From Aquabacterium humicola (GTDB taxonomy: Bacteria; Pseudomonadota; Gammaproteobacteria; Burkholderiales; Burkholderiaceae_C), in contig NZ_JARGNB010000002.1 of the NCBI RefSeq assembly GCF_030167915.1, forward strand, positions 620,001 to 684,000: a stretch of 64,000 nucleotides of DNA, read 5' to 3'. The position numbers and the translations under genes are program-made. This document shows, one piece after another, positions 57,900-64,000 of this stretch. Numbering within the stretch: position 1 is the stretch's first letter; every line of letters starts with the position of its first letter. The notes below the pieces were generated by a model. It was not told the DNA's origin and did not search any database. It saw only the letters and a program-made list of their open reading frames with translations.

Positions 57900-58187
57900 A
57901 TGACGAATGCACATCGCCCGCTGGCGCTGCTGTTCACCGCCGTGGCCCTGCTCGCCGGCTGCGGCGGCGGGGACGACTACAGCGCGCCGCCGCCACCCCC
58001 GCCGACCCCCGCGCCGCCGCCACCGGATCCGCTGGCCGCGGTGCCCGACGCGGCGAAGCAGTCGATCGAGGGGCTCGCGAGCTACCTGAAGGCGCTGACA
58101 CTCAATGTGAGCGACACCCGCGAACCGGTCGCGATCGACGGCGTGACCCTGCCCGCCAGCGACACCGCCGAGCCGAGCGCGATCTGA
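57900..58187 (+). CDS. Small proline-rich lipoprotein
   Basis: A 95-residue predicted lipoprotein. The leader ends LLAGC with the lipidated cysteine at position 21, followed by GGGDD, a proline-rich run (PPPPPPTPAPPPP) likely spanning from the membrane, and a short helix AAKQSIEGLASYLKAL. I recognise no family. GAGGAGC precedes ATG 57900 and it lies 10 bases after the DUF4331 gene, so co-expression is likely. Confidence 0.82.
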   Translation: MTNAHRPLALLFTAVALLAGCGGGDDYSAPPPPPPTPAPPPPDPLAAVPDAAKQSIEGLASYLKALTLNVSDTREPVAIDGVTLPASDTAEPSAI

Positions 58188-58243
58188 AGCCGACCGTGCC
58201 GCGCGACCCCATGCGCGGCACACCCATCGTTTGGAGGGAACGC

Positions 58244-59353
58244 ATGCGCAAGCTCCTGCTGGCCGCCTCGCTGGTCGCTTCGACGGTCGCTTCGTTGATC
58301 GTGCAGGCGGCACCGATCGTGCCGCAGGCCGATGACGAGGTGATCGAGCGCCTGCCTGCCGTGGCACGGGCGGGCACCAGTGCCGATCCGGCGCTCGCGC
58401 TGAACGAAGCGCGCAGCCTGCTCGAGGCCGGCCGCGAGCAAGGCGATCCGCGCCTCGCCGGGCGGGCGCTCGCGCGGCTCGCGCGCTGGCAGTCCGATGC
58501 GCGCGCGCCGGCCGACATCGTGCTGCTGCTGGCCGACACCGAGCAGTACCTGCACCGCTTCGAGCCGGCGAACCGCCGCCTCGAGGCACTGGTGCGGCGA
58601 GATGCTCGTCAGCCTCAGGCCTGGTTGATGCTGGCGACGCTGCACCGCGTGCAGGGCCGCTACGACGCCTCTGACAGGGCCTGCGATGCGCTGCGTGGCC
58701 TGCGCGCGCAGCCGTACGCGGACGCGTGCGTCGCCGAGAACCGCGCGTTGCGCGGCGAGCATGAGCCGGCGCGGCGCCAGCTGCAGGCGCTGATCGCGCT
58801 GTCGACCGACGCCGGCACGCGCGCGTGGTTGACGACTTCGCTGGCCGAGCTCGAGCAGCGCGCCGGCCGCGCGGCCGCGTCGGATGCCGCTTGGCGACAG
58901 TCCCTGGCCAGTGGACGCGATGCCTACGCGGCGATCGCCTACGCCGATTTCCTGCTCGACCAGCAGCGTCCTCGCGACGCCTGGCGTGTGCTGCAGGCCG
59001 AGCAACGCAGCGATGCGGCGCTGCTGCGGCTGGCGATCGCGGCGCAGCGTGCCAGGCTGCCCGAGGCCAGCGCGCTGCGCGACGAGCTGCGCGAGCGCTT
59101 CGCGCAGGCCGACCAGCGCAGCGGCCCCAGCGGCCACGAGCGCGAGCGTGCGCTGATGGCGCTCGAGATCGAGCGTGATCCGGCAGCGGCCTTGCGCGCT
59201 GCGCGCCAGAACGTCGAGCAGCAGCGGGAGCCGCTCGATCTGCTGTTGCTGGCGCGCTGCGCCACGGCGGCCGGCGATGCCGCCGCGCTGGCCGAGGCGA
59301 AGGCGCTGGCCGAACGCATCGGGCTGCGCGACGTGCGGCTGGCCGCGCTGTGA
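58244..59353 (+). CDS. TPR-like repeat protein, exported
   Basis: A 369-residue protein with a signal peptide (KLLLAASLVASTVASLIVQAA) and an all-helical body made of repeated Ala/Leu/Arg-rich helix pairs. Examples are EALVRRDARQPQAWLMLATLHRVQGRYDAS and AYADFLLDQQRPRDAWRVL, consistent with tetratricopeptide repeats. ATG 58244 follows a strong GGAGGGAA. It probably forms a periplasmic scaffold for the DUF4331 protein or the HupE-like membrane protein encoded next. Confidence 0.83.
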   Translation: MRKLLLAASLVASTVASLIVQAAPIVPQADDEVIERLPAVARAGTSADPALALNEARSLLEAGREQGDPRLAGRALARLARWQSDARAPADIVLLLADTEQYLHRFEPANRRLEALVRRDARQPQAWLMLATLHRVQGRYDASDRACDALRGLRAQPYADACVAENRALRGEHEPARRQLQALIALSTDAGTRAWLTTSLAELEQRAGRAAASDAAWRQSLASGRDAYAAIAYADFLLDQQRPRDAWRVLQAEQRSDAALLRLAIAAQRARLPEASALRDELRERFAQADQRSGPSGHERERALMALEIERDPAAALRAARQNVEQQREPLDLLLLARCATAAGDAAALAEAKALAERIGLRDVRLAAL

Positions 59354-59370
59354 GCAGGGGAGGACGCGCC

Positions 59371-60507
59371 ATGCTTCGATCGATGTTTATGCTGTTCGCT
59401 GCGCTGCTGCTCGGCCTGCCGGCCGCGGCGCACAAGGCAAGCGATGCCTACCTGGTCATCGAGTCGCGCGACGGCGCGACCCAGCTGCGCTGGGACATCG
59501 CGCTGCGCGACCTCGATGCGGCGCTGCCGATCGATGCGGACGGCGACCGGCAACTGACCTGGGGCGAGGTCAAGGCCGCCTGGCCGGCGATCGACGCATT
59601 GGCGCTGGCCGCCTGGTCGGTGCCCGGTTGCCGGTTCGAGTTGTTGGGCCATGCCCTCGAACGCCGCAGCGATGGCACCTACGCGGTTCTGCAACTGCGC
59701 GCGCCCTGCGTGGTCGACGAGCGCACGCCGCTGCGCTACACGTTGTTCGCCGAGGTCGACCCGACGCACCGCGGCATCGCCAAGATCGTGCGCGCCGACG
59801 GCAGCTCGGTCGCGCGCCTGCTCGATCCGCAGCAGCCGGCGGCCGTGGCGGCGACGGGCCCTGCGCCCGCGACGTCCGGCGAGGCTTCCGCCGCGCCGAC
59901 CGCCGGCGCCTTCCTGCGCGAAGGCGTGCACCACATCGTCACCGGCTACGACCACCTTTTGTTCCTGCTGTGCCTGCTGCTGCCGGCGGTGCTGCGGCGC
60001 GACGGCGGCCGCTGGCAGGCCGTTCAGGGCTGGCAGGCCGCGTTGTGGCCGGTGGCCAAGGTCGTCACGCTGTTCACGCTGGCGCACTCGGTGACGCTGG
60101 CACTCGCGACGCTCGGGTGGGTGCGGCTGCCACCGTCCATCGTCGAACCGGCGATCGCTGCGACCATCATCGTCGCCGCGCTCGACAACCTGAAGCCGCT
60201 GATCGGCCGCCATCGTGGTGCGATCACCTTCGCCTTCGGCCTGGTCCACGGCTTCGGCTTCGCCGGCGTGCTCGGCGAGCTGCAGCTGCCGCCGGCCGCC
60301 TTCGGGTGGGCGCTGTTCCAGTTCAACCTGGGGCTCGAGCTGGGCCAGCTGGCGATGGTGCTGGCGGTGGTGCCGCTGCTGTATGTGCTGCGCCAACGGC
60401 GGCTGTACGTGCCGGGGGTGATGGGCGCGGGTTCCGTCGCGGCGATGATGCTGGCGGCAGTCTGGCTGGTCGAGCGCACGGCCGACGTCAGCCTCTTGCC
60501 CTTCTGA
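59371..60507 (+). CDS. HupE/UreJ family membrane protein
   Basis: A 378-residue protein. A signal peptide precedes an extracytoplasmic domain (HKASDAYLVIESRDG to about residue 170). About six helices then carry the HupE/UreJ_2 signatures GVHHIVTGYDHLLFLL, TLFTLAHSVTLALATLG and FAFGLVHGFGFAGVLGEL. Several histidines in the membrane part suggest metal (nickel or cobalt) transport, as inferred for HupE. ATG 59371 has GGGGAGGA upstream; GTG 59350 overlaps the TPR gene stop and is less likely. Confidence 0.87.
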   Translation: MLRSMFMLFAALLLGLPAAAHKASDAYLVIESRDGATQLRWDIALRDLDAALPIDADGDRQLTWGEVKAAWPAIDALALAAWSVPGCRFELLGHALERRSDGTYAVLQLRAPCVVDERTPLRYTLFAEVDPTHRGIAKIVRADGSSVARLLDPQQPAAVAATGPAPATSGEASAAPTAGAFLREGVHHIVTGYDHLLFLLCLLLPAVLRRDGGRWQAVQGWQAALWPVAKVVTLFTLAHSVTLALATLGWVRLPPSIVEPAIAATIIVAALDNLKPLIGRHRGAITFAFGLVHGFGFAGVLGELQLPPAAFGWALFQFNLGLELGQLAMVLAVVPLLYVLRQRRLYVPGVMGAGSVAAMMLAAVWLVERTADVSLLPF

Positions 60508-60526
60508 GGTGCTCGTGAACTAGAAT
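60496..60526 (+). promoter_or_regulatory. thrS operon promoter
   Basis: TAGAAT at 60521-60526 is a good -10, with TTGCCC at 60496-60501 as a possible -35 at a long 19-base spacing. The -35 lies within the last codons of the HupE-like gene. Transcription would begin about 30 bases before the leader peptide start. Confidence 0.5.
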
Positions 60527-60564
60527 CGGCGCCTTCATCGATCAACAAGGGCGAGAAAGGCATC

Positions 60565-60609
60565 ATGGTTGTGACACCGCGAACTACGTCGTTCGCCACC
60601 GCTGACTGA
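60565..60609 (+). CDS. Threonine-rich leader peptide of thrS
   Basis: A 14-codon open frame, [14 protein letters not shown], preceded by AGAAAGG. Four of the 14 residues are threonine, encoded by four different codons, with two in tandem at codons 7-8. Its position between the promoter and an intrinsic terminator, just before the threonyl-tRNA synthetase gene, is that of an attenuation leader. A hairpin with arms GCGAAC/GTTCGC (60579-60596) covers the tandem threonine codons. Confidence 0.7.
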
Positions 60610-60614
60610 CCGTC

Positions 60615-60686
60615 GGCCGCGCCGTCACGCCTGTTCGCACACCTTTCCCCGAACACCTGAAAGCGCGGTCCTCACCGCGCTTTTTT
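60615..60686 (+). promoter_or_regulatory. Attenuator: antiterminator and intrinsic terminator before thrS
   Basis: The terminator is a perfect 10-bp stem, AAAGCGCGGT/ACCGCGCTTT, around CCTC at 60660-60683, continuing into six T residues (60681-60686). GGCCGCGC at 60615-60622 can pair with GCGCGGTC at 60663-60670 (eight pairs, one G-U), which would destroy the terminator. The upstream arm lies six bases after the leader-peptide stop. A ribosome that finishes the peptide would cover it and allow termination; one stalled at the threonine codons would leave it free. Confidence 0.68.
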
Positions 60687-60733
60687 GTTGCCCGTTTTTG
60701 TTGCCCGTTTCCTGCCGGGCGAGAGGGATTCCC

Positions 60734-62653
60734 ATGATCAAGATCACGTTGCCCGATGGTTCCCAACGCGAGTACCCGCAGCCGGTGACGGTGGCCGAAG
60801 TGGCCGCGTCGATCGGCGCCGGACTGGCGAAGGCCGCGCTCGGCGGCCGGGTCGGCGAAGGGGCCGGCGCCAGGCTCGTCGATACGAGCCACCGCATCGA
60901 TGCCGATGCGAAGCTGGCGATCGTCACGGAGAAGGACGCGGCCGGCCTCGAGATGATCCGCCACTCGACGGCGCACCTGCTGGCCTACGCCGTCAAGGAG
61001 CTGTTCCCCGAGGCCCAGGTGACGATCGGCCCGGTCATCGACAACGGCTTCTACTACGACTTCTCGTACACGCGGCCCTTCACGCCCGACGACCTGGCGG
61101 CGATCGAGGCCCGCATGCTGGAGCTGTCCAAGAAGGACGAGCCGGTGGTGCGCCGCGTTCTGCCGCGCGACGAGGCAGTGGCCTACTTCAAGGGTCTCGG
61201 CGAGCACTACAAGGCGGAGATCATCGCCAGCATCCCGAGCAACGAGGACGTCTCGCTCTACCGCGAAGGCGGCTTCGAGGACCTGTGCCGCGGCCCGCAC
61301 GTGCCGAGCACGGGCAAGCTGAAGCACTTCAAGCTGATGAAGGTGGCCGGCGCCTACTGGCGCGGCGACCACCGCAACGAGATGCTGCAGCGCATCTACG
61401 GCACGGCCTGGGCGACGAAGGACGATCTGCAGAACTACCTGCGCATGCTCGAGGAAGCCGAGAAGCGCGACCATCGCAAGCTCGGCCGCGAACTCGACCT
61501 GTTCCACATGGACGAGCACTCGCCGGGCACGGTGTTCTGGCATCCCAAGGGCTGGGCGGTGTGGCAGGAGGTCGAGCAGTACATGCGCCGCGTGTACCGC
61601 GAGAACGGCTACCAGGAGGTCAAGGGCCCGCAGATCCTCGACCAGGGGCTGTGGGAGAAGACGGGGCACTGGCAGAAGTACCGCGAGAACATGTTCACGA
61701 CGGAGTCGGAGAAGCGCGAGTACGCGCTGAAGCCGATGAACTGCCCCGGCCACATCCTGATCTTCAAGCAGGGCATCAAGAGCTACCGCGACCTGCCGCT
61801 GCGCTTCGGCGAGTTCGGCCAGTGCCACCGCAACGAACCGACGGGCGGCCTGCACGGCATCATGCGCGTGCGCGCCTTCACGCAGGACGACGGCCACATC
61901 TTCTGCACGGAGGACATGATCCTGCAGGAGTGCGTCGAGTACACGGCGCTGCTGCAGCGGGTCTACGCCGACTTCGGCTTCACGAACATCCTCTACAAGG
62001 TGGCGACGCGGCCCGAGGCCCGCATCGGCTCCGACGACAGCTGGGACAAGGCCGAGCACGCGCTGATGGAGTCGCTGCGTCGCTCGGGCTGCGAGTTCGT
62101 GATCTCGCCCGGCGACGGCGCGTTCTACGGCCCGAAGATCGAGTACACGCTGAAGGACGCGCTCGGCCGCGAGTGGCAATGCGGCACGATGCAGGTGGAC
62201 TTCTTCATGGCCGAGCGGCTGGGCGCCGAGTACGTCGCCGAGTCCGGCGAGCGCAAGACGCCGGTGATGCTGCACCGGGCGATCGTCGGCAGCCTCGAGC
62301 GTTTCATCGGCATCCTGATCGAGCAGCACGCCGGCGCGCTGCCCGCCTGGCTGGCGCCGGTGCAGGCGGTGATCTGCTGCATCACGGAGGCGCAGGCCGA
62401 ATACGTTGCTGAAATCGCGAAAACGCTGCAAAAACAAGGAGTTAGAGTGGCGGCCGATTTGCGGAACGAAAAGATCACGTATAAAATCCGCGAGCATTCA
62501 TTGCAGAAGGTCCCGTACATCCTCGTCGCTGGCGACAAGGAGAAGGCAAGTGGGGCCGTTGCCGTGCGCGCTCGAGGCAACCAGGACCTCGGTGTGATGC
62601 CCCTCGACGACTTCGCTCGCAAGCTCGCCGACGACATCAACCGCAAGGTCTGA
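60734..62653 (+). CDS. thrS: Threonyl-tRNA synthetase
   Basis: A 639-residue class II synthetase that charges tRNA-Thr. Domains in order: TGS ([19 protein letters not shown]), the editing/SAD domain ([19 protein letters not shown]), the catalytic core and the anticodon-binding domain. The zinc ligands Cys337 (MNCPGH), His388 (DDGH) and His514 (LHRAIVG) are each three positions after those of the E. coli enzyme. ATG 60734 has GAGAGGGA upstream. Expression is probably controlled by the upstream leader peptide and terminator. Confidence 0.97.
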
Positions 62654-62727
62654 CGCGGATCTCCGGCGCGCGCATTCGCTTTTTCTGAGCCCGTTGCTTG
62701 CCTTGGGGCTGTGTAGGGGTTAGCACC

Positions 62728-63279
62728 ATCGCTACTTTTCTCGATCGCCGGATGCCCAATGTCGAGCGCAAGCATCGACTGAACCGCGAAATCATGGCGC
62801 CCATGGTTCGCTTGAACGGGGTGAACAACGAGCCCTTGGGCATCGTGAGCATCCAGGAAGCGCTGCGGCTGTCCGGCGAAGCGGATGTCGATCTGGTCGA
62901 GATCGCGGCCACGGCCGATCCGCCGGTCTGCCGGCTGATGGACTACGGCAAGTTCAAGTACCTGGAACAGAAGAAGGCCGCAGAAGCCAAGTCGAAGCAG
63001 AAGGTCATCGAGGTCAAGGAAGTCAAGTTCCGGCCCGGTACCGACGAAGGCGACTACAACATCAAGATGCGCAACCTGCGCCGATTCATCGGCGAGGACG
63101 GCGACAAGGGCAAGGTCACGCTGCGCTTCCGGGGCCGCGAGATCACGCACCAGGACATCGGCATGCGGCTGCTGGAGCGCATCCGCGACGAGCTGGCCGA
63201 TGTGGCGGTCGTCGAGCACATGCCCAAGCTCGAAGGGCGCCAGATGATCATGGTGCTGGCGCCGAAGAAGAAGCAGTGA
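62728..63279 (+). CDS. infC: Translation initiation factor IF-3
   Basis: A 183-residue IF-3. The N-domain begins ATFLDRR, with RKHRLNREI and [15 protein letters not shown], joined by the lysine-rich linker ([11 protein letters not shown]) to the C-domain ending [20 protein letters not shown]. The frame has no ATG at the expected N-terminus. ATC 62728, preceded by AGGGG, is where the homologous proteins start, matching the rare AUU/AUC starts used for IF-3 autoregulation. It prevents premature subunit joining and checks the start codon. Confidence 0.94.
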
Positions 63280-63303
63280 GCGTTTGAAGGTTTGAAGAAT
63301 CCG

Positions 63304-63327
63304 CGCCGCGGTCTGGTCACCGCGGCG
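63304..63327. promoter_or_regulatory. Strong hairpin in the infC-rpmI spacer
   Basis: CGCCGCGGT and ACCGCGGCG form a 9-bp stem around CTGGTC in the 133-base gap before rpmI. There is no T run. In E. coli the same gap carries the L20 autoregulatory structure; whether this hairpin is its counterpart cannot be shown from sequence alone. Confidence 0.45.
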
Positions 63328-63412
63328 ACTGGAAGAAGCCGCTGCAGGCTGTGCAAGTGCAACGACGAAGGCTGTCGGGGCCGCCTGCAGGGGTCACTTA
63401 GAAGGAGCAGTC

Positions 63413-63616
63413 ATGCCCAAGATGAAGACCAAGAAGAGCGCGGCCAAACGTTTCCGCGTCCGTCCGGGGGGTACCGTCAAGCGCGGTCAGGCGTTCAAGC
63501 GCCACATCCTCACGAAGAAGTCCACCACGCGCAAGCGCCACCTCCGTGGTGCCGCCAACGTGCACGAGACCAACATGGGCCACATGGCGCAGATGCTGCC
63601 GTTCGCTGGTCTGTGA
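63413..63616 (+). CDS. rpmI: 50S ribosomal protein L35
   Basis: A 67-residue basic protein with the L35 start [13 protein letters not shown], the [23 protein letters not shown] core, and the usual length. AAGGAG lies upstream of ATG 63413. It is in the conserved infC-rpmI-rplT order and is incorporated into the large ribosomal subunit. Confidence 0.97.
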
Positions 63617-63644
63617 TCTGACGACGGACTGAAAGGAAACCAAC

Positions 63645-64000
63645 ATGCCTCGCGTCAAACGTGGTGTAACCGCACGCGCCCGCCACAAGAAGATCCTGGC
63701 CCTGGCCAAGGGTTACCGTGGCCGCCGCAAGAACGTCTTCCGCGTCGCCAAGCAGGCGGTGATGAAGGCGGGTCAATACGCCTATCGTGACCGCCGCACC
63801 CGCAAGCGGGTGTTCCGTCAGCTGTGGATCGCCCGTATCAACGCGGCGTCCCGCAGCCTGGGGCTGTCCTACAGCAAGTTCATGGCCGGCCTGAAGAAGG
63901 CCTCGATCGACATCGACCGCAAGGTCCTCGCCGATCTGGCCGTCAACGACCCGGCTGCTTTTGGCAGCATCGTCGCGAAGGTGAAGGCCCAGCTCGCTTG
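63645..64000 (+). CDS. rplT: 50S ribosomal protein L20 (cut at the window edge)
   Basis: The first 118 codons of L20, [20 protein letters not shown] through [13 protein letters not shown], essentially the whole protein; the window stops two bases into what is probably the TGA stop. AAAGGAAA precedes ATG 63645. L20 binds 23S rRNA early in assembly and in other bacteria represses its own operon. Confidence 0.96.

Follow-up and report, generated by a model that had tools for sequence, protein, structure and literature searches.

The window, that is the whole stretch of 64,000 nt of Aquabacterium humicola DNA that was analysed, carries thrS, the gene for threonine–tRNA ligase, followed by infC, rpmI and rplT. 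The upstream neighbour of the thrS leader is a hupE/ureJ-like gene that ends at 60507. Between this gene and thrS lie, in this order, a TAGAAT hexamer, a ribosome site, a short leader frame, the arm GGCCGCGC, a small hairpin and a terminator; the gap from the terminator to thrS reads as 47 nt. The features are as follows:

60521..60526, plus strand: TAGAAT, hexamer similar to a −10 element, assigned to a presumed thrS promoter, from sequence reading
60553..60560, plus strand: GAGAAAGG, ribosome site of the leader, resembling a Shine-Dalgarno sequence; in 59 aligned leaders its GAAAGG columns are invariant or conserved to at least 90%
60565..60609, plus strand: longer version of the leader frame, ATG start, 14 codons; open in the window, ATG not conserved
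60571..60609, plus strand: leader frame, GTG start, 12 codons and stop TGA, Thr at codons 2, 5, 6 and 10; supported by the homologous start in relatives and by Thr enrichment
60577..60585, plus strand: region 1, CCGCGAACT, fixed block over codons 3–5; can pair with downstream AGTTCGCG in many relatives
60615..60622, plus strand: region 2, antiterminator 5′ arm GGCCGCGC; supported by pairing, folding and shuffles
60632..60655, plus strand: small hairpin TGTTCG...CGAACA nested within the antiterminator; from the fold, TGTTCG kept in three aligned relatives
60663..60670, plus strand: region 3, antiterminator 3′ arm GCGCGGTC, which is also the terminator 5′ arm; supported by pairing, folding and shuffles
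60659..60686, plus strand: terminator hairpin (3:4) with T run, −16.4 kcal/mol; from the fold, core arms kept in three aligned relatives
60734..62653, plus strand: thrS, threonine–tRNA ligase, the controlled gene; TIGR00418, 711 bits, cut-off 384
62698..63279, plus strand: infC (IF-3), the gene after thrS; TIGR00168, 243 bits
63413..63998, plus strand: rpmI (63413–63616) and rplT (from 63645), after infC; TIGR00001 and TIGR01032

A TAnAAT hexamer is visible by eye 5′ of the leader in many relatives. A simple promoter and terminator scanner flagged neither a sigma-70 promoter nor a terminator in 60450–60760; in our reading the terminator was missed because the scanner's rule wants a T run after the stem, and the first four T of this run are themselves paired with the A/G run. 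No tRNA gene was found in the 64-kb window. Rfam searches yielded no relevant match (T-box, Thr leader or other leader family) at E ≤ 1 in window positions 58000–64000 and none at E ≤ 0.1 in ten loci, eight of them with leaders. A mir-138 match at 60183–60265 on the minus strand, inside the hupE/ureJ-like gene, as well as HPnc0260 and BjrC68 matches in the ten-locus scan, stayed under the gathering scores and were taken as chance. Between the terminator and thrS there is also a near-tandem short repeat, GTTGCCCGTTT, at 60687–60710, which is present as a single copy in two same-genus relatives.

A sequence-only reading of this DNA had proposed trp-style attenuation of thrS in response to threonine, with a 14-codon leader frame containing four Thr codons, two of them in tandem. 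The frame is indeed open from ATG 60565 to TGA 60607–60609 and the tandem Thr codons lie at 60583–60588; however, the start is probably GTG 60571. At the site of this GTG the relatives carry ATG, with GTG in only 2 of 61 leaders (window included). AAAGG at 60556–60560 precedes GTG 60571 by 10 nt, a spacing common to many relatives, and ATG 60565 by 4 nt. Given this spacing and an ATG that is not conserved in relatives, ATG 60565 was ranked second, and the leader peptide of the window is therefore probably 12 codons long, judging from the sequence. With its ribosome site the short frame has a translated appearance; frames of this size usually go unannotated.

The family sample comprised the thrS loci of the best 80 of 586 relatives, all named, plus the window. 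An MTPRT-type leader was found in 60 of the 80 named thrS loci (61 with the window), one of them reading MTLRT. As the search pattern had partly fixed codons 1–5, the search was redone from the ribosome site with the codons left free (GGTT or GGTG before the start preferred): a frame was recovered in 61 of 81 regions, with R-T at codons 4–5 in 60 of these 61. Leader length is nearly constant, 12 or 13 codons in 47 of 61 leaders (window included). A 48-nt leader sequence model matches 120 of 150 family genomes, 119 of them at a single place and one with a second, weak match; in the genome of the window itself the thrS leader scores E = 1.3e-13 and the next place 0.34. Carriers include Rubrivivax, Roseateles, Methylibium, Piscinibacter, Leptothrix, Hydrogenophaga, Acidovorax and Delftia. 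We also looked for loss of the frame or of its Thr codons in close relatives that retain the terminator, and this is not what we found, since both same-genus genomes (L219 and L220) keep the frame. L220 reads MTPRTTFATAD*, and set against the window its frame has three synonymous changes and lacks one whole codon; L219 reads MTPRTTPATTVA*.

In the wider family the same comparison gave a divided answer: the leader is kept in 60 of 80 loci, but 19 of 80 are without it, and in 18 of these 19 a hairpin is found by a loose pattern. The leader pattern as such is absent from 20 of 80 loci, one of which (L027) carries an R-T leader, MAVRTRFAKGLS, with one Thr. Leaderless loci such as L056, L058, L064, L066, L069, L078 and L080 show a terminator-like hairpin directly before thrS, several of them with TAAAAT shortly upstream. 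Several leaderless loci belong to Limnohabitans and carry TAAAAT shortly before the hairpin, so that polymerase would have to get past a constant terminator to reach thrS there. In Rhodoferax antarcticus (L021) the leader is present, and no terminator was recognised. Genomes without a match to the leader model number 30 of 150; among 20 of these that were listed, 16 are 2.3–3.3 Mb in size.

The leaderless loci bear on an alternative in which the hairpin does no more than terminate the upstream hupE/ureJ-like gene, or is the relic of a tRNA-Val terminator, with thrS read by leakage or from a promoter of its own and the Thr frame incidental. A hairpin that persists where the leader is missing is what such an arrangement would leave behind, and a −10-like hexamer occurs within 140 nt before thrS in 11 of 20 loci inspected. 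However, the frame-preserving changes within the genus and the near-constant leader length do not suit an incidental frame, nor does the Thr enrichment described below. Only 47 nt remain between terminator and thrS for a separate promoter, and the scanner flagged none there, though it flagged none upstream either. We consider this alternative unlikely.

The leader has an excess of codons for threonine, the substrate of the enzyme encoded downstream. Beyond codon 5, Thr accounts for 121 of 526 codons in 59 distinct tails, compared with a mean of 35.7 and a maximum of 58 in 2000 shuffles, and the other two frames of the same tails hold 6 and 9 Thr in 467 codons. All four kinds of Thr codon are used in the tails (ACC 61, ACG 37, ACT 13, ACA 10). 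The Thr-richest leader is one from Leptothrix, MTPRTTTTTTSTSTEV; at the other end, 9 of 61 leaders contain only two Thr codons.

The first codons follow a different rule. A fixed block ACA-CCG-CGA-ACT (60574–60585 in the window) shows ACA at codon 2 in 59 of 61 frames, CGA at codon 4 in 52 of 61 and ACT at codon 5 in 53 of 61, yet the thrS genes of these loci seldom use the three, with ACA making up 3.6%, CGA 3.9% and ACT 4.2% of their Thr or Arg codons. The block extends beyond the family: among 77 regions from families other than f1, a CGA/CGG-ACn core with a hairpin was found in 23, with CGA in all of them and CGA-ACT in 20 of 23, where up to seven of the regions, out of a set of 20, had been fetched for their match to the leader model and were kept out of the prevalence counts. 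Near-fixed rare codons would be expected if the ribosome stalled through its nascent peptide (MTPRT) or on the codons as such (ACA-CCG-CGA-ACT), and the element then sensed a cue other than threonine, for example an inhibitor or the supply of Arg or of a rare tRNA. Neither peptide nor Arg sensing explains the Thr-enriched, variable tail with its mixed synonymous codons, however, and pairing in the RNA accounts for part of the block: GTTCG follows the core in 26 of 52 family leaders (those of the 61 with core and terminator), compared with 2.2 expected. A role of this kind for the peptide or the rare codons is in our view very improbable, even if 1:2 pairing would seem to account for only half of the block.

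An intrinsic terminator, as read from the sequence, stands between the leader and thrS. It had been described as a 10-bp stem with six T residues at 60660–60686, and we find it as 11 pairs, 60659–60669 with 60674–60684 (the outermost a G-U), with the loop CCTC and the T run at 60681–60686. The rival pairing named in the same reading was also recovered: GGCCGCGC at 60615–60622 is complementary to GCGCGGTC at 60663–60670 with one G-U, and this arm starts six bases past the leader stop, as had been stated. The 141-nt region folds better than all of 200 dinucleotide shuffles (z −3.4). The 2:3 helix of the window has 8 pairs, and its score was reached by 1 of 100 shuffles of the intervening sequence. 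In the family this helix attains p ≤ 0.05 in 26 of 60 loci (window included; 3 expected) and fails to do so in 34 of 60, with a median z of 1.2. In 47 of 60 loci its best version, the partner of the terminator 5′ arm, starts 2–13 nt past the leader stop, a placement that argues against a hairpin serving as terminator alone. The sequence-only reading had called for covariation of the stems, and for the 2:3 helix it is found in part: 38 of 57 loci keep the variable pair 7, compared with a mean of 27 and a maximum of 37 in 5000 permutations, whereas pairs 8 and 9 were not significant in these 57 loci (p 0.08 and 0.11) and pair 6 was uninformative (p 1.0). This test placed the loci by a 4-nt core only and took in 57 of 69 of them, 12 without CGCG near the stop being left out, and the permutations treat the loci irrespective of relatedness. 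A possible 1:2 protector helix reaches p ≤ 0.05 in 24 of 60 loci, with CGCGAACT:AGTTCGCG as the commonest pairing (10 loci); in the window, GCGAAC can pair with GTTCGC (p 0.065).

We modelled the folding for different positions of the ribosome. When the ribosome stands at Thr codon 6, sequestration of region 3 exceeds one half in 57 of 60 loci; its median over the 60 loci is 0.955 in this stalled state, 0.63 with the ribosome at the stop and 0.42 in untranslated RNA. The mean for the stalled state is 0.90, as against shuffled-set means of 0.73 with a maximum of 0.78, and 33 of 60 loci fall into the top tenth of their own shuffles while 27 of 60 do not. For the window, RNA up to region 3 yields −24.4 kcal/mol, antiterminator included, when the ribosome is stalled (60601 on), and −6.9 without the antiterminator when it is at the stop (60622 on, a shorter RNA); taken alone, the antiterminator has −21.5 and the terminator −16.4 kcal/mol. 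According to these models antiterminator and terminator would be mutually exclusive, and a stalled ribosome would set the antiterminator free. One weak point of the scheme, besides the hairpin kept without a leader in 18 of 80 relatives, is that the ‘stop’ and ‘untranslated’ states do not separate cleanly in the models: sequestration of region 3 stays above one half in 49 of 60 models even when the ribosome has reached the stop, and the stalled value exceeds the stop value by 0.3 in only 29 of 60 loci. The window itself gives 0.65 at the stop and 0.89 in untranslated RNA, so that strong termination in the absence of translation is not predicted there; the 1:2 helix could provide it in 24 of 60 loci. 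The best fold of the complete transcript holds the terminator in both states, the stalled one included (−31.6). The switch must therefore be kinetic and decided while RNA polymerase moves, and in known attenuators the fold is chosen in this way.

In the wider order, taken to be Burkholderiales, we sampled 60 thrS upstream regions, from 59 of 150 genomes and covering 50 of its 51 families. A Thr-rich short frame was present in 17 of the 60 regions (14 families), compared with 1.4 in shuffles, and this is not a full count because the automatic cutting of regions missed the f1 leaders L163 and L166. Thr ranks first of all residues in this short-frame count, followed by Arg with 9. A terminator was recognised after the frame in 14 of the 17 regions (11 families) and in none of L147, L156 and L168. 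Examples of such leaders are MAVRTTTTHP, MFKRTTTTRISR, MQLNRTTTTS and MQRTSTKTITYLG. Many thrS regions of the order show no Thr frame. The strict leader model matches 26 of 200 order genomes (of the 18 compared by coordinates, 15 before thrS and 3 elsewhere), so most sampled families of the order are without the close form. Other orders of the class, which we take to be Gammaproteobacteria in the sense of GTDB, were represented by 40 thrS regions drawn from the higher-scoring part of a list of 93 genomes; a Thr-rich frame was found in none of them (1.5 in shuffles). Second copies of thrS occur in L147 (G032) and L231 (G077), which belong to the same genus of family f33, and carry a different leader with a run of Thr: ...VTTTTTTSTAT* in L147, where no terminator with a T run was recognised, and ...VFTTTTTTSTAT* in L231, the latter seen by eye and not listed by the frame filter.

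The same samples were scanned for the control element known from E. coli. E. coli K-12 carries GTGATCTTTCGTGTGGGTCAC just before thrS, which we take to be part of the ThrRS operator. As a first regular expression for this operator proved too strict (14 of 40), it was replaced by a structural scan, and 21 of 40 other-order leaders then showed a tRNA-mimic-like hairpin of the E. coli type in the final 85 nt ahead of thrS (0.5 in shuffles). The contrast with E. coli drawn in the sequence-only reading thus holds for the hairpin, which is present in E. coli K-12 and these 21 leaders and does not exceed chance in this order. That ThrRS binds the leader and represses, in the manner of E. coli ThrRS acting on its mRNA, is hardly conceivable here even though the gene is the same and the hairpin is common elsewhere in the class, as the hairpin occurs in 1 of 60 order regions (shuffle 0.95) and in 3 of 81 family regions (0.75), where all three are the terminator itself.

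Of the regions given to the tRNA finder, 39 of 50 from the order and 8 of 10 from the class have a tRNA-Val(GAC) gene upstream of thrS; this input was drawn from the 60 and 40 regions and partly picked for a visible tRNA. This neighbourhood is probably very old. In about ten order regions the terminator ends no more than 60 nt from the end of the tRNA. Both findings would be expected if the hairpin were the relic of a tRNA-Val terminator discussed above; they also suggest to us that the tRNA terminator was turned into an attenuator once a Thr leader arose in between. We thus propose that thrS control may have been rebuilt in Burkholderiales: an ancestral arrangement of tRNA-Val(GAC), terminator, ThrRS-binding operator and thrS would have lost the operator, and a Thr-codon leader with the CGA-ACT core would have arisen upstream of the terminator of the tRNA and made it an attenuator. 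Translational feedback by the enzyme would in this way have been exchanged for transcriptional sensing of charged tRNA, with the rare-codon core acting both as region 1 and as a pacing signal for the ribosome. We offer this history tentatively, our doubts slightly outweighing our belief in it.

As to the element itself, the anatomy of the sequence, the conservation of the Thr frame, the alternative helices and an E. coli-type hairpin that stays at chance level are what we observe. Conservation of the frame, Thr enrichment and alternative helices, as read and modelled, support the proposed trp-style attenuation, and we regard it as very probable that the element is a ribosome-mediated transcription attenuator of the classical kind, through which thrS responds to how much charged tRNA-Thr is available. 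From the sequence we infer where transcription starts, that the leader is translated, and how stalling, the threonine response and read-through into the downstream genes would come about. A ribosome would translate the leader from GTG 60571 to TGA 60607–60609, following RNA polymerase closely. With ample Thr-tRNA, the ribosome would reach the stop and cover ∼12 nt beyond, i.e. most of the arm 60615–60622; region 3 (60663–60670) would then pair with region 4, the terminator would form and transcription would end before thrS. When Thr-tRNA is scarce, the ribosome would stall on the early Thr codons, leaving the arm 60615–60622 free to pair with region 3, with the hairpin 60632–60655 inside. The antiterminator so formed would block the terminator, and thrS would be transcribed, perhaps together with infC, rpmI and rplT.

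In a large part of Burkholderiales, common bacteria of soil and water, thrS is probably controlled by tRNA-sensing attenuation. If true, this would be a natural swap of regulatory principle at one gene, from translational to transcriptional control of thrS. The attenuator would offer a compact threonine sensor, and its CGA-ACT core raises the question of how rare codons and RNA pairing combine in one attenuator.

The trp, his, thrABC and pheST attenuators of E. coli work by the 1:2, 2:3 and 3:4 logic with a leader peptide rich in the cognate amino acid. The window would share this logic of regions with them, and its leader too is rich in cognate codons, whereas the genes differ: here Thr would control a synthetase, through a leader of 12–13 codons in most loci and with a CGAACT core. 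E. coli thrS is a textbook case of translational self-control, in which ThrRS binds a tRNA-Thr-mimic operator on its own mRNA; the gene is the same, but control there is translational and exerted by ThrRS, and its hairpin is not above chance in this order. Attenuator surveys in proteobacteria by Vitreschak in 2004 and by Lopatovskaya reportedly exist and may already list such a leader. Among the literature matches listed, a scope that did not extend to these older surveys, none dealt with a leader peptide of thrS, either in Burkholderiales or elsewhere in Betaproteobacteria. The closest published parallels among the matches listed are a thrS leader of Streptomyces lividans (PMC8079986) and a cysS leader of Rhodobacterales (PMC8632094). 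In S. lividans TK24 a Thr leader (thrL) with the peptide MKRVRPFLETTPGFVPAR precedes thrS as a proposed attenuator (PMC8079986). Compared by description, it resembles the leader of the window as a short frame of Thr codons before thrS with a proposed attenuator function, and differs in belonging to an Actinobacterium, in its leaderless start and in an unclear termination (PMC8079986). The uORFC-8-2 motif before cysS in Rhodobacterales is described as a proposed ribosome-mediated attenuator (PMC8632094): it differs from the window in its Cys codons, its gene (cysS) and its place in Alphaproteobacteria, and resembles it in that codons for the cognate amino acid stand in tandem ahead of a tRNA-synthetase gene, again in an order of proteobacteria.
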